Assembly: GCA_009776375.1 (NCBI GenBank)
Contig: WRNW01000005.1
Location: 1 to 36,237, forward strand
Source of the DNA: Candidatus Saccharimonadota bacterium
GTDB lineage: Bacteria; Patescibacteriota; Saccharimonadia; Saccharimonadales; Saccharimonadaceae
Reading direction: 5' to 3'
DNA length: 36,237 nucleotides
Positions 4,033 through 29,239 of the stretch are shown here, piece after piece. The notes below the pieces were generated by a model that saw only the letters and a list, made by a program, of their open reading frames with translations, ran no database searches and was not told where the DNA came from. The translations under genes and the position numbers were made by a program. Numbering within the stretch: the first letter of the stretch is position 1; every line of letters starts with the position of its first letter.

Positions 4033-4052
4033 ACTTTCTCCATATTTTCCAT

Positions 4053-4094
4053 AAGCTCCGTTCTCGCAATAACAGTAGTGCAAGAGCGGAGCTT
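4053..4094 (+). repeat. Conserved palindromic hairpin element, copy 1
   Basis: aagctccgttctcgcaataacagtagtgcaagagcggagctt: about 15-bp arms; near-identical copies at 5438-5480 and 14512-14553. Confidence 0.85.
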
Positions 4095-4128
4095 CTTGGT
4101 TTGGTTTATTAGTCTTATAAATTCCCCC

Positions 4129-4162
4129 TTGACTTTTTTCGGGGGGGGGGTAAACTTATAGT
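4129..4162 (+). promoter_or_regulatory. Candidate phase-variable promoter with G10 tract between -35 and -10
   Basis: TTGACT (4129-4134), tttttc, G10 (4141-4150), TAAACT (4151-4156) overlapping TATAGT (4157-4162). Confidence 0.6.
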
Positions 4163-4199
4163 AGTAATAATGTGATGCGGTGGGGAAAGGGATGAAATA

Positions 4200-4838
4200 G
4201 TGAGCGCAACCGATACATATACACAACATGCGTACCAACAAGCTAAGGAAAAGTGCCCATCACAATGCCCGCCAGCGAACGAGTTTGGCAGCAAAGTTTG
4301 TGAAATAACCGGACCTGGTGACCGAGACTACGACCGTTTTTATGCAGAGTATATGGGAATGGTGGAAGAATGGCGACGGCTCGACCAATTCAGGCCGGCG
4401 GGCAGTAATCCACTAAGCGAGGAATATATTCAGCATGAGGCCGACATTTTTGCTAGGCAACGTGTGTGTGAAAAAGAACCTTTAAGCTGGCTCGAGGGCA
4501 GTTATGATGCTAGCGACGCGCCAATTAGGCGAGTAACTCGAGAACATATAGAAGAATATCTCGCAGACCCGTTCGGACGAGCCATTGAAGATCTCAGAGA
4601 AGACACGATAGCTACCCTATATAATATCTGGCACGGGGCCTTACGTTCTGCTAGAGAGCTTCGCTCGGAAGCTCTAGCACATATAGAAGAAGATCTCGCA
4701 GACCCGTTCGGGCAAGCCATCGAAGATTTCCGAAAAGAGACGGCAGCTATCCTAAGGCGGATCGGGCAAAAGGCTTACCGGGGTTACGTTCTCACTAGAG
4801 AGCTCCGCTCGGAAGCCTCAGACAGCAAGAAGACATAA
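4200..4838 (+). CDS. Hypothetical protein with N-terminal Cys motif and a C-terminal tandem repeat
   Basis: GTG start after gggaaaggg. Protein has CPSQCPPANEFGSKVC and two copies of HIEE(Y/D)LADPFG(R/Q)AIED. Confidence 0.75.
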   Translation: MSATDTYTQHAYQQAKEKCPSQCPPANEFGSKVCEITGPGDRDYDRFYAEYMGMVEEWRRLDQFRPAGSNPLSEEYIQHEADIFARQRVCEKEPLSWLEGSYDASDAPIRRVTREHIEEYLADPFGRAIEDLREDTIATLYNIWHGALRSARELRSEALAHIEEDLADPFGQAIEDFRKETAAILRRIGQKAYRGYVLTRELRSEASDSKKT

Positions 4839-4891: not shown

Positions 4892-4924
4892 TTGACTTTT
4901 TACGGGGGGGGGTAAACTTATAAT
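4892..4924 (+). promoter_or_regulatory. Candidate phase-variable promoter with G9 tract between -35 and -10
   Basis: TTGACT (4892-4897), G9 (4904-4912), TAAACT (4913-4918), TATAAT (4919-4924). Near-duplicate of the 4129-4162 promoter. Confidence 0.6.
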
Positions 4925-4938
4925 GACAATAATCTAAG

Positions 4939-5397
4939 ATGGTGGGAGAAGCAGGTAGAATCATGGCTGGGGGAGAAAGTAAACGATATACGGATTATAC
5001 GTCGGAAGAAAAAGACGCGCTCCGCCAAAAGGCCGCAGCAGAATTGTGCCTGCATTGCGTCAATCACGTTTGTGAAACGGTTGAACCTGAGTCTCAAATT
5101 AGTGATGGCCCTCTGCCATATGAGTATAACAAGGAGTTTCAAGCTGTTGCGTGTGCCCAATTTTACGCTAAGAATACGCCGTCGCTCAGTGAGGATGAGA
5201 TAACCTATCGCGCCAACCACTCTGCTAGGAAAATGGCATGTCTCAAGCTGAATAGAGAGTATCTAAACACCCTCAATCCCCCTGGTTATCTTGGTGATTA
5301 TCCTCGTTTTAGTGGTCCTCTCGGTGACCAGATTGTGCCAGAGATTAAGGACGCGGTAAAGGCACATATAATAGACTATCTTGCAAAGCAGGTGTAG
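4939..5397 (+). CDS. Hypothetical Cys-motif protein, possibly related to the 4200-4838 product
   Basis: ATG 4939, or more likely ATG 4963 (MAGGESKRYTDYT...). CLHCVNHVC and LSEDEITYRANHSARKMAC parallel LSEEYIQHEADIFARQRVC in the upstream ORF. Confidence 0.7.
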   Translation: MVGEAGRIMAGGESKRYTDYTSEEKDALRQKAAAELCLHCVNHVCETVEPESQISDGPLPYEYNKEFQAVACAQFYAKNTPSLSEDEITYRANHSARKMACLKLNREYLNTLNPPGYLGDYPRFSGPLGDQIVPEIKDAVKAHIIDYLAKQV

Positions 5398-5437
5398 GAT
5401 CATTCAGCTCGTAAAAACCAGTAAACTTAAAATCTAT

Positions 5438-5480
5438 GAGCTCCGTTCTCGCAATAACAGTAATGCAAGAACGGAGCTTA
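5438..5480 (+). repeat. Conserved palindromic hairpin element, copy 2
   Basis: gagctccgttctcgcaataacagtaatgcaagaacggagctta, same orientation as copies 1 and 3. Confidence 0.85.
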
Positions 5481-11741: not shown

Positions 11742-12386
11742 TTGCCAAAATCCACCACACCTGGGGGGGGGTCGTTACCTGAAACCGGTTTAGAGTTGAT
11801 CGAGGCCGCGTGGGAATTTGCCGCGGCGGCGCATGACGACCAAGAATACGGCGAGGGCACAGGTTTACCGTACAGTTACCACTTGGCCCAGGTAGCACTC
11901 AAACTTCTTGAACTCGGCTACGACGCGTGTACTATTGCGGCGGGAATTTTGCACGATGTCGTAGAGGACGTTAAAGGCGTAACCTTCCAAGATTTAGAAG
12001 AAGCAGGATTCCCCGAGCCAGTTGTTGTAGGTGTAAAGGGGATGACTTATTTTGCTAACGGGGAAAAGAATAAGGAGCGCAGACGACAAGACAAAGTAGC
12101 CCAGGCGAAAGGAAATCCGATTTCCTGGGTGGTGAAATATGTGGATTCGTGGTGTAACCGAGAAGCTAGCCATGACTGGCCTAAAGCAGACGATCCTAGA
12201 GGCGAGCGCTCTTTCGAGAAATATGACAAGAACGTCAAAGAGCTCGAGGTAGACTTGCCATTGCCAGAACAGATTCAAGAGCATCTAGGTGACCTAGCCA
12301 TTAGTTCACTCAGCGAGGATGATCGATCTACGCTGAGCACTATGTTCACCGGGAAAATTGATGATGCGTGCAATCGAGCAGCATGA
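11742..12386 (+). CDS. SpoT/MESH1-like HD-domain protein (putative small alarmone hydrolase) with G9 tract after the start
   Basis: TTG start after aaggag. AAHDDQ...GLPYSYHLAQVALKLLELGYDACTIAAGILHDVVEDV...VKYVDSWCN resembles SpoT/RSH hydrolase motifs. In-frame G9 at 11763-11771 encodes GGG. Confidence 0.75.
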   Translation: MPKSTTPGGGSLPETGLELIEAAWEFAAAAHDDQEYGEGTGLPYSYHLAQVALKLLELGYDACTIAAGILHDVVEDVKGVTFQDLEEAGFPEPVVVGVKGMTYFANGEKNKERRRQDKVAQAKGNPISWVVKYVDSWCNREASHDWPKADDPRGERSFEKYDKNVKELEVDLPLPEQIQEHLGDLAISSLSEDDRSTLSTMFTGKIDDACNRAA

Positions 12387-13730: not shown

Positions 13731-13759
13731 TTGCAGCTTCGACCAAGCAGTGCTAGCAT
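13731..13759 (+). promoter_or_regulatory. Promoter for the 13783 gene
   Basis: TTGCAG (13731-13736), 17-bp spacer ending TGC, TAGCAT (13754-13759). Confidence 0.45.
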
Positions 13760-13782
13760 GGGTTGACTATGGAGCAAAAGTG

Positions 13783-14496
13783 ATGGCTGGAATACCGGGC
13801 AGTGGTGGCGGGGGGGGGCATGGTTCTGTTGATGAAATTCCGACGGCTTGTGGACGAGAGTGCAATTATTACCAACAGCGGTTTGACTTAGGCAGATGCA
13901 AACGAACTGACCACCTGTTTAGTGATGACGACGGTTCGCAAGTTCATTTATCGCAAGGATTACCGAGACAATGCCCGTTCAATAAAGATTCTTCGGTCCT
14001 ATTCGCCACGATCACGGCGGAATATGCGGGCGGTGAAAACGGTCGGATTACTGACAAAGGACAAGGCAGAGTCGACTTTCTCGCCACGATAATCATGCAA
14101 TGTGTCAAAGAAGAAAGGCCATCAGAGATGGCGAATATCCAATATGTGATGTCTTCGCTAGGCGGTCCTAATGACACCATCCATCATGTTCGAGATGCAA
14201 TATCAACACATGAAATCCCTCAGCGTGGAACGGAGGTCCTGGGGAATAGAAGCGAAGAGTCTTTGTCTAATGACTATGAAGAATATGACATGGCGAGCAC
14301 CGTGAGAGAAATGTTAGAATCTCGTCTCGGCGGGGTGGTTGTGGCAATTGTCGAATCCAAAAAAGAACTAGAGGAACTGGCTGGGGAATATGGTATAGAC
14401 CCCGAGCAGATCAAGAATAGTGCTTTTGCAGCCAGGTTGTTTATGGCTGCTAAAAAGAGTTTGCCAATCGAGCTAGCGTTGGAACCAAGCGCGTGA
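13783..14496 (+). CDS. Hypothetical Cys-motif protein with G9 tract near the start
   Basis: ATG 13783 with ggag upstream. MAGIPGSGGGGGHGSVDEIPTACGRECNYYQQRFDLGRC... G9 at 13810-13818 is in frame. Confidence 0.75.
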   Translation: MAGIPGSGGGGGHGSVDEIPTACGRECNYYQQRFDLGRCKRTDHLFSDDDGSQVHLSQGLPRQCPFNKDSSVLFATITAEYAGGENGRITDKGQGRVDFLATIIMQCVKEERPSEMANIQYVMSSLGGPNDTIHHVRDAISTHEIPQRGTEVLGNRSEESLSNDYEEYDMASTVREMLESRLGGVVVAIVESKKELEELAGEYGIDPEQIKNSAFAARLFMAAKKSLPIELALEPSA

Positions 14497-25189: not shown

Positions 25190-25879
25190 GTGGTACCTCA
25201 ATTCGTTAGCAGTAGTGTTTATTACGTCCTCTACGGTTGTTTCAAATGGCCAGTTTGGCGCAAATTAAAGATCCGTGAGTTCGGGCGCCAAAATATCCCC
25301 AAGCGTGGCGCGGTGATTTTTGCCGCCAATCATGTCAAAGATGTGGACTCAGTGATTCTACTCGGTGCGGCTCGCCGGCTAGTTCACTTTATGGCGAAAA
25401 AGACTCTGTTTGATGGTGGTAAGAAACTGTCACTGAAATTTATCAAAATCCTCGTGAAATTGACCGGCCAGATCCCAGTCAAAGCAGGCGATAAACTGGT
25501 CGTAAAAGCCGCTTTCGAGATGGCTATCGCCTACTTGAAACGTGGCGGAGCGGTTGGGATGCACGTCGAGGGCACGCGGACGCTCGATGGCAAATTGCAT
25601 GCGCCCAAACTCGGTTTTACTAAACTAGCCTATGAGACGCGGGTGCCGGTCGTGCCGGTGGCTTTGCGCTACGATGGCGATCCGGAAATTCATTTTGGTA
25701 AACCAATTCCGTACTCTACTTATCAAAAATGGTCAGCCGAACAGTTTGGCTACGAACTACAAAAACGTCTCGCCAAACTCAGCGGTCAAGAAATGTCGGG
25801 CGAAGTCTCGCCCATAGTCAAAAAGGGTGACACAACCGTTGTCCAAGCGATTTTTACCAACAAAGTTAAACCGTCCTAA
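25190..25879 (+). CDS. plsC: 1-acyl-sn-glycerol-3-phosphate acyltransferase
   Basis: RGAVIFAANHVKDVDSVIL (NHxxxxD box) and GAVGMHVEGTRTLDGKLHAPKLGFTKLAYETRVPVVPVAL. GTG 25190 is the likely start. Confidence 0.83.
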   Translation: MVPQFVSSSVYYVLYGCFKWPVWRKLKIREFGRQNIPKRGAVIFAANHVKDVDSVILLGAARRLVHFMAKKTLFDGGKKLSLKFIKILVKLTGQIPVKAGDKLVVKAAFEMAIAYLKRGGAVGMHVEGTRTLDGKLHAPKLGFTKLAYETRVPVVPVALRYDGDPEIHFGKPIPYSTYQKWSAEQFGYELQKRLAKLSGQEMSGEVSPIVKKGDTTVVQAIFTNKVKPS

Positions 25880-26838
25880 GCGGCCGGGATATGTAACTTA
25901 ATCTTGGTCGGTATGCGCCAGGTTGAGATGGTTTTGATATCTCGCACCGTAAAATTCTCACCGTCAACCATCACATTGATTTTCTTAATTGGGGGGGGGT
26001 TAAAAGTAAAACTGGCGGTCTTGGCACGTTTGGCTGGCAGTCCGCGCACTACCCAAGCCACAATTCTCGGCACGTCGATCAGAGGGTTGCCTTTGATGTT
26101 GACATTAACAACCGCTATTTCGTCACCGATGTGCAGAGATTTGATAACCTTACCATCGATTCGCGGAAACCAAACCCCACCAATGCGACCAAGTAATGCC
26201 GAAATCACGCTATAGTGGTGCTGCTGCCCATTCATATCAGTAAAGGCTGGCAAACTAGCGCTCGGATTAGGCACGGCTTGCTTTTTATAATATTGAAAAA
26301 CCTCGATCGGCACGTTGATTTTTTTGCCAGCCGCTTTCGCGATCCGTTGCAAGCGATCATTACGCTCGCCGATATTGGCCAAATGTCCGATGCTCCATTC
26401 GTGCAACGCGTAGTAAAGATGTTGACCATTGATCTTTAGATCCAGCGCTTGATATTCGATAGTCGGCGAATTAACAATGCCGATAATGTCAAGAAATTTC
26501 TGTCGACTGCCGAACGAACCAATCATATCGTTAGCTTGTCCGAGGGGGAGAGTCACGAAATCTACCGCTTTATCTCCTTTAATCAGACCATTAAACACCG
26601 CACTCAACGTCCCATCACCACCAGCGGCAATGACGGTGTCGCCATCCTTAACCGCATCACTGGTAGCGATATATTTTATAGTGTCATCAAAATTTGGCAG
26701 AACCGTCAAGTATGTTACGTTAGCTCCAGTGCGACGGCAATATTTGTCTAGTGGCGTGCGTACCAGAGGATGAAAACCGCCAGAGCGCGTGCTCTGGTCG
26801 TTGTAAAACACCACAAACTGTCGCTGATTCACCCGCAC
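25876..26838 (-). CDS. Diacylglycerol/lipid kinase family protein with in-frame C9 tract
   Basis: VVFYNDQSTRSGGFHPLV; DTVIAAGGDGTLSAVFNGLIKGDKAVDFVTLPLGQANDMIGSFG is the DAGK catalytic motif. C9 on the coding strand (25991-25999) encodes PPP. Confidence 0.82.
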   Translation of the reverse strand: MRVNQRQFVVFYNDQSTRSGGFHPLVRTPLDKYCRRTGANVTYLTVLPNFDDTIKYIATSDAVKDGDTVIAAGGDGTLSAVFNGLIKGDKAVDFVTLPLGQANDMIGSFGSRQKFLDIIGIVNSPTIEYQALDLKINGQHLYYALHEWSIGHLANIGERNDRLQRIAKAAGKKINVPIEVFQYYKKQAVPNPSASLPAFTDMNGQQHHYSVISALLGRIGGVWFPRIDGKVIKSLHIGDEIAVVNVNIKGNPLIDVPRIVAWVVRGLPAKRAKTASFTFNPPPIKKINVMVDGENFTVRDIKTISTWRIPTKIKLHIPAA

Positions 26839-26877: not shown

Positions 26878-27897
26878 ATGAAACAGGTGATTTTAACAGG
26901 TGATCGGCCGACGGGCAAATTGCACATTGGTCATTTTGTGGGAGCTTTGCGCCAGCGCGTCGATATGCAAAACAGTGGTGAATACGACATGTTCGTGATG
27001 ATCGCTGACCAACAGGCCCTAACCGATAACGCCCGCGATCCCCAGAAAATCCGCAATAATCTGCTCGAAGTCGCGATGGACAACCTGGCGGTCGGCATTG
27101 ATCCGGAAAAAACCACTTTGTTCGTCCAATCGGCCATCCCGGCGCTGTACGAACTAACGATTCATTACCAAAATTTGGTGAATCTGGGTCGGTTGCAACG
27201 CAATCCAACGATCAAGACCGAAATTCGCGAGCGCGGTTTCGAAAAATCTGTGCCAGTTGGGTTTTTGACTTATCCGATTGCCCAAGCGGCCGATATCACG
27301 GCCTTTAATGCAAATCTGGTGCCCGTCGGCGAGGATCAACTGCCGATTCTCGAACAAGACCGCGAAATCGTCCGAACCTTTAACTCGATTTATGGCGAAG
27401 TTTTAGTCGAGCCAGAGGCGGTGTTAGCGACCGACGAAAAGGCGCGCCGTCTGCCCGGCATTCGCGGCATCGACGACAAAATGAGTAAATCCCTCAATAA
27501 CGGAATTTATCTGGCCGACGACGCCGAAACCGTGCGCCAAAAAGTCATGGAAATGTACACCGACCCCGACCACATCCGCGTCACCGACCCCGGTAAAATC
27601 GACGGTAACGTAGTGTTTTACTATCTCGATGTTTTTGCACCCAACGACCCGCACGTGGCCGAAATGAAGGAACAATACCGAGCTGGCGGTCTCGGCGATG
27701 TCACGGTCAAGGAATATTTGATCGAAGTTTTAGAAAAATTACTCGCGCCGATTCGCGAAAAACGCGCCTATTACGAAACTCGTCCCGACGAAGTCCGCGC
27801 CATCCTCCGCGCTGGCAGCGAAAAGGCCAACGCCGTCGCCAACACCACCTTGCAAAAAGTCCGCGACGCGATCGGGGTAAATTACTTTGGCTCGTAG
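26878..27897 (+). CDS. trpS: Tryptophanyl-tRNA synthetase
   Basis: MKQVILTGDRPTGKLHIGHFVGAL (HIGH); GIRGIDDKMSKSLNNGIYL (KMSKS). Confidence 0.96.
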   Translation: MKQVILTGDRPTGKLHIGHFVGALRQRVDMQNSGEYDMFVMIADQQALTDNARDPQKIRNNLLEVAMDNLAVGIDPEKTTLFVQSAIPALYELTIHYQNLVNLGRLQRNPTIKTEIRERGFEKSVPVGFLTYPIAQAADITAFNANLVPVGEDQLPILEQDREIVRTFNSIYGEVLVEPEAVLATDEKARRLPGIRGIDDKMSKSLNNGIYLADDAETVRQKVMEMYTDPDHIRVTDPGKIDGNVVFYYLDVFAPNDPHVAEMKEQYRAGGLGDVTVKEYLIEVLEKLLAPIREKRAYYETRPDEVRAILRAGSEKANAVANTTLQKVRDAIGVNYFGS

Positions 27898-29239
27898 CCG
27901 ACCAACTCTACTAGCGGTTGGTAAAAGTCTGCTTTAACCATGTCGAGCGGCACGCCAGCTTTGCGCAAATACTCATAATCATATGCGTCAAAGTTCCCGT
28001 GTGCCTGTTTGTGCTTGATCGTCTTTGCAATATACTCAATAAAAATCGGCTTCAGCTGTTTAATTTCATCAGGATCGTAACTAGGAGTGATTATTAAATG
28101 ATCATCTCCTAGTCGTGGATATCGTTTGAGCCCGCGCGAGGTAACATACTTCGCTAGGAATTTTCGAACTTTGTCCAGCCGTTCACCATCATAATCATAA
28201 AATTCGCAGGCCTGCTGTGAGCTCCACAAGTCATCATTCTTATCCGTTTCTGCCAGCACTTCCATAGCTTGCTCTATCAAATTTGTGAGCACTGAGTGCG
28301 GATAGTGAGTACGCGTGCGACCCTCATCGTCATCTCTTAACTCACTGATATCGCTATATTGCTTAAGACGGTTGCCCACCCATGCGAAGTTTAAGCCCGT
28401 TTTTTCCAAAATAATCATAGAGATCATATAGGCAGTCATCATTTCGCCACCGCGTGTACGATTACGTTCGCCCTCGCGTAAAAGTTCAATTGCTTCTGGC
28501 GGATATAGGTTACTAAGACGGCCACGCCGGCTCCATCGCTGCTCCGGTTCGTAGCCGTAGCCGAGAAATTTAAGCCGCTTCTCTGCCCATGCCGGATTGC
28601 GATAACCTGCCATTTTCGTCAATGCGGCACTCGACAACCATCCTTCGTGTTGTTTGAACTGTCTTTCATAGGCGCGTATTCTTTCAAGCAGAGACTTATC
28701 GTATCGTTTGTCAATTTTAGATTTTTTAATGCCTAAAAGTTGAGCAGTCTTATTCACAAACAAGTCTGTGTGTCCTTGCCCAAGTATTTTAGCCGCCGCA
28801 TAAGCTGACAGGCGATTATTTGTGGAATTATAGCATTCCTGCCACTGAAGTTCTGATCTAATAATTTCCAACGACAACGAGGAGTAAATCATGGCGTCGC
28901 AACCGTCAACCCGTTCGCCACCTATACTGAGACCACGAGTTAAACCAATAATTTTGTTCATGCCTGCCCGTAGTGAATAATTTCCGCATAGTTGTTCCGC
29001 CATGTCGTCAATAGTATATAGTTCAGCATATGGATCAAATTCGGGCGGTAGATCAACAAGGTAAATATACTGTGGCGTGCCGTCTGGCAACACTAAGTCG
29101 CAGCGCCAGCCATAATTCTTACCATCAATTTCGCCAACGTATTCGTAACCATACCCGTCGCAGACTCCACGTTTAACCTCTTGGGGGGGGGTATTTCAGG
29201 TTCAGCAAAAATCGATCTCTTCTGGGGAGCTTTATTCAT
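27882..29239 (-). CDS. Hypothetical protein, apparently frameshifted (OFF) at a C9 tract near the 5' end
   Basis: The ORF-track start (GTG 29093) truncates coding-like sequence. The same frame continues upstream as QEVKRGVCDGYGYEYVGEIDGKNYGWRCDLVLPDG to the C9 tract (29183-29191). ATG 29239 (MNKAPQKRSIFAEPEIPPP) is in another frame and is joined by one extra C. Confidence 0.7.

Follow-up and report, generated by a model that had tools for sequence, protein, structure and literature searches.

Does a run of ten Gs in the promoter spacer of an orphan gene act as a switch, and if so, is it the only one? The gene lies in a 36,237-nt stretch of DNA (the window), contig WRNW01000005.1 of assembly GCA_009776375.1, which is contig C5 of a 733-kb assembly that is 85% complete. 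The nearest matches to its ribosomal protein S9 are from Saccharibacteria MAGs. The isolate codes of several of these fit a termite-gut series, and the link to termite hosts is an assumption that rests on these codes. The first promoter and the gene it may control are arranged as follows.

4129-4134, + strand: -35 element TTGACT (from the sequence; CTTGAC is invariant across the eight promoter copies of the genome)
4141-4150, + strand: G10 tract in the promoter spacer, candidate slippage site (from the sequence; one of the 52 G9/G10 tracts of the genome)
4151-4156, + strand: putative -10 element TAAACT (TAnACT is conserved in the eight-copy alignment)
4200-4838, + strand: orphan ORF of 212 aa with 4 Cys, putative controlled gene 1 (codon score; internal 83-nt tandem repeat)

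TTTTTC (4135-4140) sits between TTGACT and the tract, and TATAGT (4157-4162) is directly 3' of TAAACT. The sequence-only reading had given these elements, with spacers of 16 bp to TAAACT and 22 bp to TATAGT, and all of them are exact. It had also offered both hexamers as the -10, and here only TAAACT holds up. Across the eight copies of this promoter in the genome, TAnACT is kept while TATAGT/TATAAT varies, so we propose, on conservation alone, that the -10 is the TAnACT directly after the tract. TATAGT/TATAAT at 21-22 bp was rejected because the other six copies do not keep it.

A promoter of the porA/opc/fetA type has a homopolymer between its -35 and -10 elements, as this one does (TTGACT-6-G10-TAAACT). 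Membership in that class also asks that small changes in tract length carry the spacer through the optimum. Tracts of G9, G10, and G11 would give spacers of 15, 16, and 17 bp, and 17 bp, for which G11 would be needed, is the optimum in this clade (see below).

For the ORF at 4200-4838, its own reading frame gives the best codon score (with 0 stops, versus 10 and 14). It had no Pfam match, and we found no relative among 60 genomes except for one stretch at E = 0.004. The two copies of its 83-nt repeat (4537-4619 and 4672-4754) are 84% identical.

The earlier single-locus view was right about the tract, but it missed a genome-wide set and a second copy of the promoter (TTGACT-TTTTAC-G9-TAAACT-TATAAT), which lies 763 bp downstream of the first and ahead of another orphan ORF. 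The second cassette and the hairpins that flank the pair are listed here.

4892-4897, + strand: -35 element TTGACT of the second cassette (sequence; eight-copy alignment)
4904-4912, + strand: G9 tract of the second cassette, with a 15-bp spacer to TAAACT (sequence; repeat comparison)
4913-4918, + strand: putative -10 element TAAACT of the second cassette (sequence; eight-copy alignment)
4939-5397, + strand: orphan ORF of 152 aa with 5 Cys, putative controlled gene 2 (codon score)
4048-4094, + strand: strong terminator-like hairpin after rpsI (fold -25.7 kcal/mol, z -5.8)
5433-5479, + strand: second hairpin copy, 3' of the second cassette (fold -25.3 kcal/mol, z -7.2)

The promoters of the two cassettes are 76-94% alike (from repeats within the window), and the distance from TTGACT to TATAAT in the second is 21 bp. 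The second ORF, whose real start may be the ATG at 4963, had no Pfam match, and no clear relative of it was found. A 24-nt stretch at its 3' end (5362-5385) is related to the 83-nt repeat of the first ORF, which suggests that the two cassettes are old duplicates. The pair of cassettes has rpsI on one side and a tRNA-Leu gene on the other. Because the flanking hairpins, which are 91% identical, enclose the pair, the two ORFs are probably separated from the ribosomal operon and in need of their own promoters. The locus has no conserved orthologue: every close relative has unrelated genes after rpsI. A relative from the same genus (L071) has its own insert at this position, with an unrelated gene and its own tracts (G11 at 1871-1881 and C9 at 2671-2679), so the site after rpsI seems to gather switchable genes.

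A scan for consensus promoters is not significant by itself at this locus (2 found versus 1.9 expected); the promoter is significant through its conservation among copies and genomes. In the source genome, eight promoters form a single cassette, in whose alignment CTTGAC, the tract, and the A-ACT of TAnACT are invariant, and the base after TTGAC is T or A. Overall, 12 of the ~49 tracts in this genome lie in TTGAC promoters, versus about 0.5 expected. Sixteen of the 61 genomes have TTGAC 3-12 bases before a run of G8 or longer, often at many sites; hits to the reversed pattern are almost nil. The proposal that this is a poly-G promoter switch like that of porA is supported and stood up to each check that we could make: the layout occurs in eight copies here and with the same -35/G-tract/-10 order in 16 genomes; length variation at the locus itself and an effect on expression are inferred.

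Within the window, G runs have lengths of 5 (three runs), 9 (five runs), and 10 (one run), and none has a length of 6-8. The 733-kb genome has 52 G9/G10 tracts, of which about 49 are distinct (three recur at the overlapping ends of two contigs). In 259 kb around the tracts, the numbers of G/C runs of 6, 7, 8, 9, 10, and 11 or more are 8, 2, 2, 37, 15, and 0. (This sample includes all 52 of the G9+ tracts, and the counts for lengths 6-8 are limited to it.) Across 72 other Saccharibacteria loci (676 kb), runs of 6, 7, 8, and at least 9 number 25, 1, 1, and 0. Long G/C tracts are thus in large excess over both chance and relatives, which is one mark of a phase-variable gene set of the Campylobacter type. 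Among the source genome and 60 relatives, G9 windows occur in 22 of the 61 genomes and are missing from 39. Eleven tract-rich genomes have 36-147 overlapping G9 windows each, and the rest of the 22 have 1-18. Runs of exactly 7 are not raised in the tract-rich genomes as a group: there are 0-3 in G000, G001, G022, G029, G031, and G035, and these same genomes have 40-147 G9+ windows. A phylum-wide trait is ruled out, as 282 of 384 genomes from the phylum have no G10 tract and most of the others have 1-3. Outside the family, G133, G262, and G443 have 7-8 G10 tracts, and the seven in G262 are all on one strand and after C.

Could such tracts arise without any function? In the absence of mismatch repair, and with a polymerase bias towards longer G runs, runs above about 6 G might simply drift to 9-10 and have no regulatory role. 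The gap at G6-G8 and the sharp cut at G10 are what such a drift would leave, and the apparent lack of MutS fits as well: we detected MutS_V in 1 of 61 genomes and no MutS in the other 60. MutS and MutL have been reported as absent from Saccharibacteria (PMC8406219), and porA switching is raised in a mutS mutant (PMC3639595). It is likely that the loss of mismatch repair promotes slippage. However, most of the relatives that equally lack MutS have no G9 tracts, so the loss of MutS does not by itself create them. Neutral drift also does not predict TTGAC upstream of the tracts (12 of ~49 in the source genome, and 16 genomes against the reversed control), the avoidance of 17-bp spacers, or the bias towards the 5' ends of ORFs (both described below). 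We consider it unlikely.

The tracts do have an orientation, with 41 of 52 on the G-richer strand of their contig versus 368 of 594 short G runs (p = 0.016). This could be expected if the tracts were a strand-oriented chromosomal signal, similar to KOPS or Chi, whose overlap with promoters is incidental. But the bias is weak, and the orientation is mixed in contigs C11, C13, C14, and C31. Such a signal would not explain the placement in promoters and the 5' parts of ORFs, and the tracts are absent from most relatives. We think that this is very improbable.

To describe the spacers, we collected 79 poly-G promoters over the 16 genomes and counted those with spacers of 15-20 bp to a strong -10 (a hexamer with at least 5/6 matches). 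For ordinary TTGAC promoters from the same clade, the counts for 15 through 20 bp are 3, 14, 75, 14, 8, and 7 (17 bp in 75 of 121), and the ordinary promoters in the sample from the source genome also peak at 17 bp (16, versus 3 each at 16 and 18 bp). This bears out the earlier claim that each G gained or lost moves the spacer relative to a 17-bp optimum. In contrast, the counts for poly-G promoters are 5, 8, 0, 7, 5, and 6, with none of 31 at 17 bp (p about 2e-11 raw, or 5e-10 after collapsing similar cassettes). If weaker -10s are admitted, then three poly-G promoters are at 17 bp. Also, the test at 17 bp was conceived after the data were seen, and genomes were pooled. Because both sides of 17 are populated, the missing length cannot be put down to an optimum that has simply shifted. 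Our reading of these sequences is that most poly-G promoters were assembled in a low, off-optimum state. Alternatively, there may be selection against 17-bp variants, or poly-G DNA may alter the optimum in a more complex way. The missing 17-bp spacers are a quantitative and testable signature of default-off contingency promoters.

The tract might instead be a rigid spacer that tunes the strength or shape of the promoter without any switching, either because poly-G DNA is A-like or because a C5/G5 hairpin hides the -35. CCCC or longer is found directly upstream of TTGAC in 10 of 79 poly-G promoters versus 2 of 103 ordinary ones, which would suit a hairpin. The stretch at our locus does fold as a hairpin, though no better than shuffled sequences (z -1.6). 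In poly-G promoters of G035 and G000, the G tract might base-pair with a C4-C5 stretch that lies opposite it, immediately 5' of TTGAC. (Apart from this, TTGAC is immediately preceded by C in 57 of 79 poly-G promoters versus 29 of 103 ordinary ones.) But the hairpin is present in few promoters, and fixed tuning leaves the tracts in coding sequences unexplained. Nor would a fixed spacer be expected to differ among otherwise similar cassettes, and it is mainly in the tract that duplicated cassettes differ (G9/G11 in G057, G10/G12/G13 in G035, and G9/G10/G14 in G012). Purely static tuning seems quite unlikely to us.

The assembly itself may hold traces of length variation. Each of the four ambiguous bases in the 259 kb immediately follows the 3' end of a G tract, and tracts mark the ends of several contigs. 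These are suggestive of mixtures of lengths, but sequencing difficulty, with Illumina errors after homopolymers, could produce them too. That tract length varies is thus an inference drawn from paralogues and from tracts at which the assembly is ambiguous or broken, not from one locus seen at two lengths. The same ambiguous bases and contig ends might be taken to mean that the G runs are false, but this is hardly credible: the tracts lie between matched -35 and -10 elements and in frame within ORFs, and other Saccharibacteria MAGs do not have them. Also, comparable termite MAGs (15 Saccharibacteria MAGs from higher termites) were assembled from HiSeq 2000/2500 reads, not from two-colour instruments on which G is dark (PMC7024585).

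About 30 tracts are within ORFs, which exceeds the number in promoters, and most of these are in frame. They are concentrated towards the 5' end (KS p = 3e-6): 22 of 30 are in the first third of the ORF, and the median relative position is 0.13. The tracts thus sit where indels would switch genes, in promoters and the 5' parts of ORFs, which is another mark of the Campylobacter type. The other long tracts in the window are:

11763-11771, + strand: G9, codons 8-10 of the HD_4-domain ORF 11742-12386, in frame
13810-13818, + strand: in-frame G9 close to the 5' end of orphan ORF 13750-14496
25991-25999, + strand: G9, which is C9 on the coding strand, close to the 3' end of the diacylglycerol-kinase-like ORF 25876-26838
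29183-29191, + strand: G9, which is C9 on the coding strand, ahead of the minus-strand ORF 27882-29093

For the HD-domain gene at 11742, we found no clear orthologue with which to compare the tract. At 29183-29191, an upstream N-terminal piece of 16 aa is out of frame with an open frame of 432 codons, and the minus-strand gene (27882-29093) is apparently frame-shifted OFF at its natural start, as judged from the reading frames. At this tract and at two others (C4:25111 and C13:3232), a 5' piece is split from a long frame. Another in-frame G9 is at the DGG motif of a Sua5/TsaC-TrmB fusion gene, which is normally a housekeeping gene (G000 C2:23470, L015). As the orthologues in four poly-G-rich relatives do not share this tract, not every coding tract need be adaptive, and some may be tolerated expansions; this case counts in favor of neutral drift.

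The proteins encoded by tract genes mostly have no Pfam match and no membrane segment. The exceptions are a few HD, NUDIX, methyltransferase, and PP2C/FHA proteins and one DUF11-type surface-like protein. They do not form one family, as none of the 40 tract-associated proteins matched another at E = 1e-3. That they are mostly orphans without membrane segments, unlike the surface antigens of classic phase variation, counts against a phase-variation reading. Similarly, the genes that would be switched are not mainly for surface structures or DNA modification, which is typical of Campylobacter-type sets but not strictly required.

Overall, the explanation that we favor, with a probability of about 0.74, is a genome-wide system of poly-G phase variation similar to that of porA. 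The anatomy, its recurrence, the non-random placement and lengths of the tracts, and the lack of 17-bp spacers are observed; slippage in the population, the effect on expression, and any benefit are inferred. The G10 tract would be the variable element of a sigma-70-type promoter. By replication slippage, in a lineage without detectable MutS, it would gain or lose Gs, which would change the distance from TTGACT to TAAACT and alter transcription of the orphan gene at 4200. G9 and G10 (15 and 16 bp) would be weak and G11 (17 bp) would be optimal. The same device would act on the neighboring gene and on about ten other genes of the genome, and the roughly 30 tracts in ORFs, mostly near the 5' end, could switch genes by frameshift. 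The promoter and coding tracts together would form a set of contingency loci, and sets of this kind would recur, patchily, in some related Saccharibacteria.

Most documented cases of phase variation come from pathogens and commensals exposed to immune systems or phage. In Saccharibacteria and other Patescibacteria, the switching of hosts and the resistance of hosts are still unresolved. Any role of the controlled genes in the interaction with a bacterial host is speculation. One possibility, for which we would not quite give even odds, is a default-off lottery in some Saccharibacteria, which lack mismatch repair. Each of dozens of orphan genes that plausibly act on the bacterial host would be kept by default at an off-optimum promoter spacing, and slippage would turn it on in a small minority of cells. 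If so, a clonal population of the symbiont would carry many combinations of expression. The roughly 50 candidate switch genes per genome are named genes that can be examined for host interaction. We found no description of phase variation in Saccharibacteria or other Patescibacteria in the open-access literature, and as far as that literature shows, poly-G switches, which are known from a few pathogens, would be new for the Saccharibacteria branch.

The closest known system is porA of Neisseria meningitidis, where tracts of 11, 10, and 9 Gs give high, intermediate, and low surface PorA (PMC3639595); porA, fetA, and opc share this spacer-tract design (PMC2791445). As in those genes, the homopolymer is between the -35 and -10 elements and tract lengths are 9-11. 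One-base changes shift the spacer, and graded expression would be expected here as well. In contrast to the three genes named in PMC2791445, about a dozen such promoters are present in one 0.73-Mb genome. The genes here encode soluble orphans, whereas those of Neisseria encode outer membrane proteins. Also, the Saccharibacterium has no detectable MutS, and its assembled promoters as a group are off the optimum.

The set as a whole is reminiscent of the phasomes of Campylobacter and Helicobacter, with tens of G/C tracts that are mostly in ORFs, a minority that are intergenic, and a patchy distribution among relatives. Putative phase-variable genes number 18-39 in C. jejuni and exceed 50 in some species (PMC8355987). 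Unlike in those genera, no set of surface-glycan or flagellar genes was recognised here, and a similar number of tracts is found in a much smaller genome, with a larger share in promoter spacers. From these comparisons, it is most likely that the locus works like a porA promoter, with its effect on expression inferred, and that the set to which it belongs is comparable in number to the phasome of Campylobacter.
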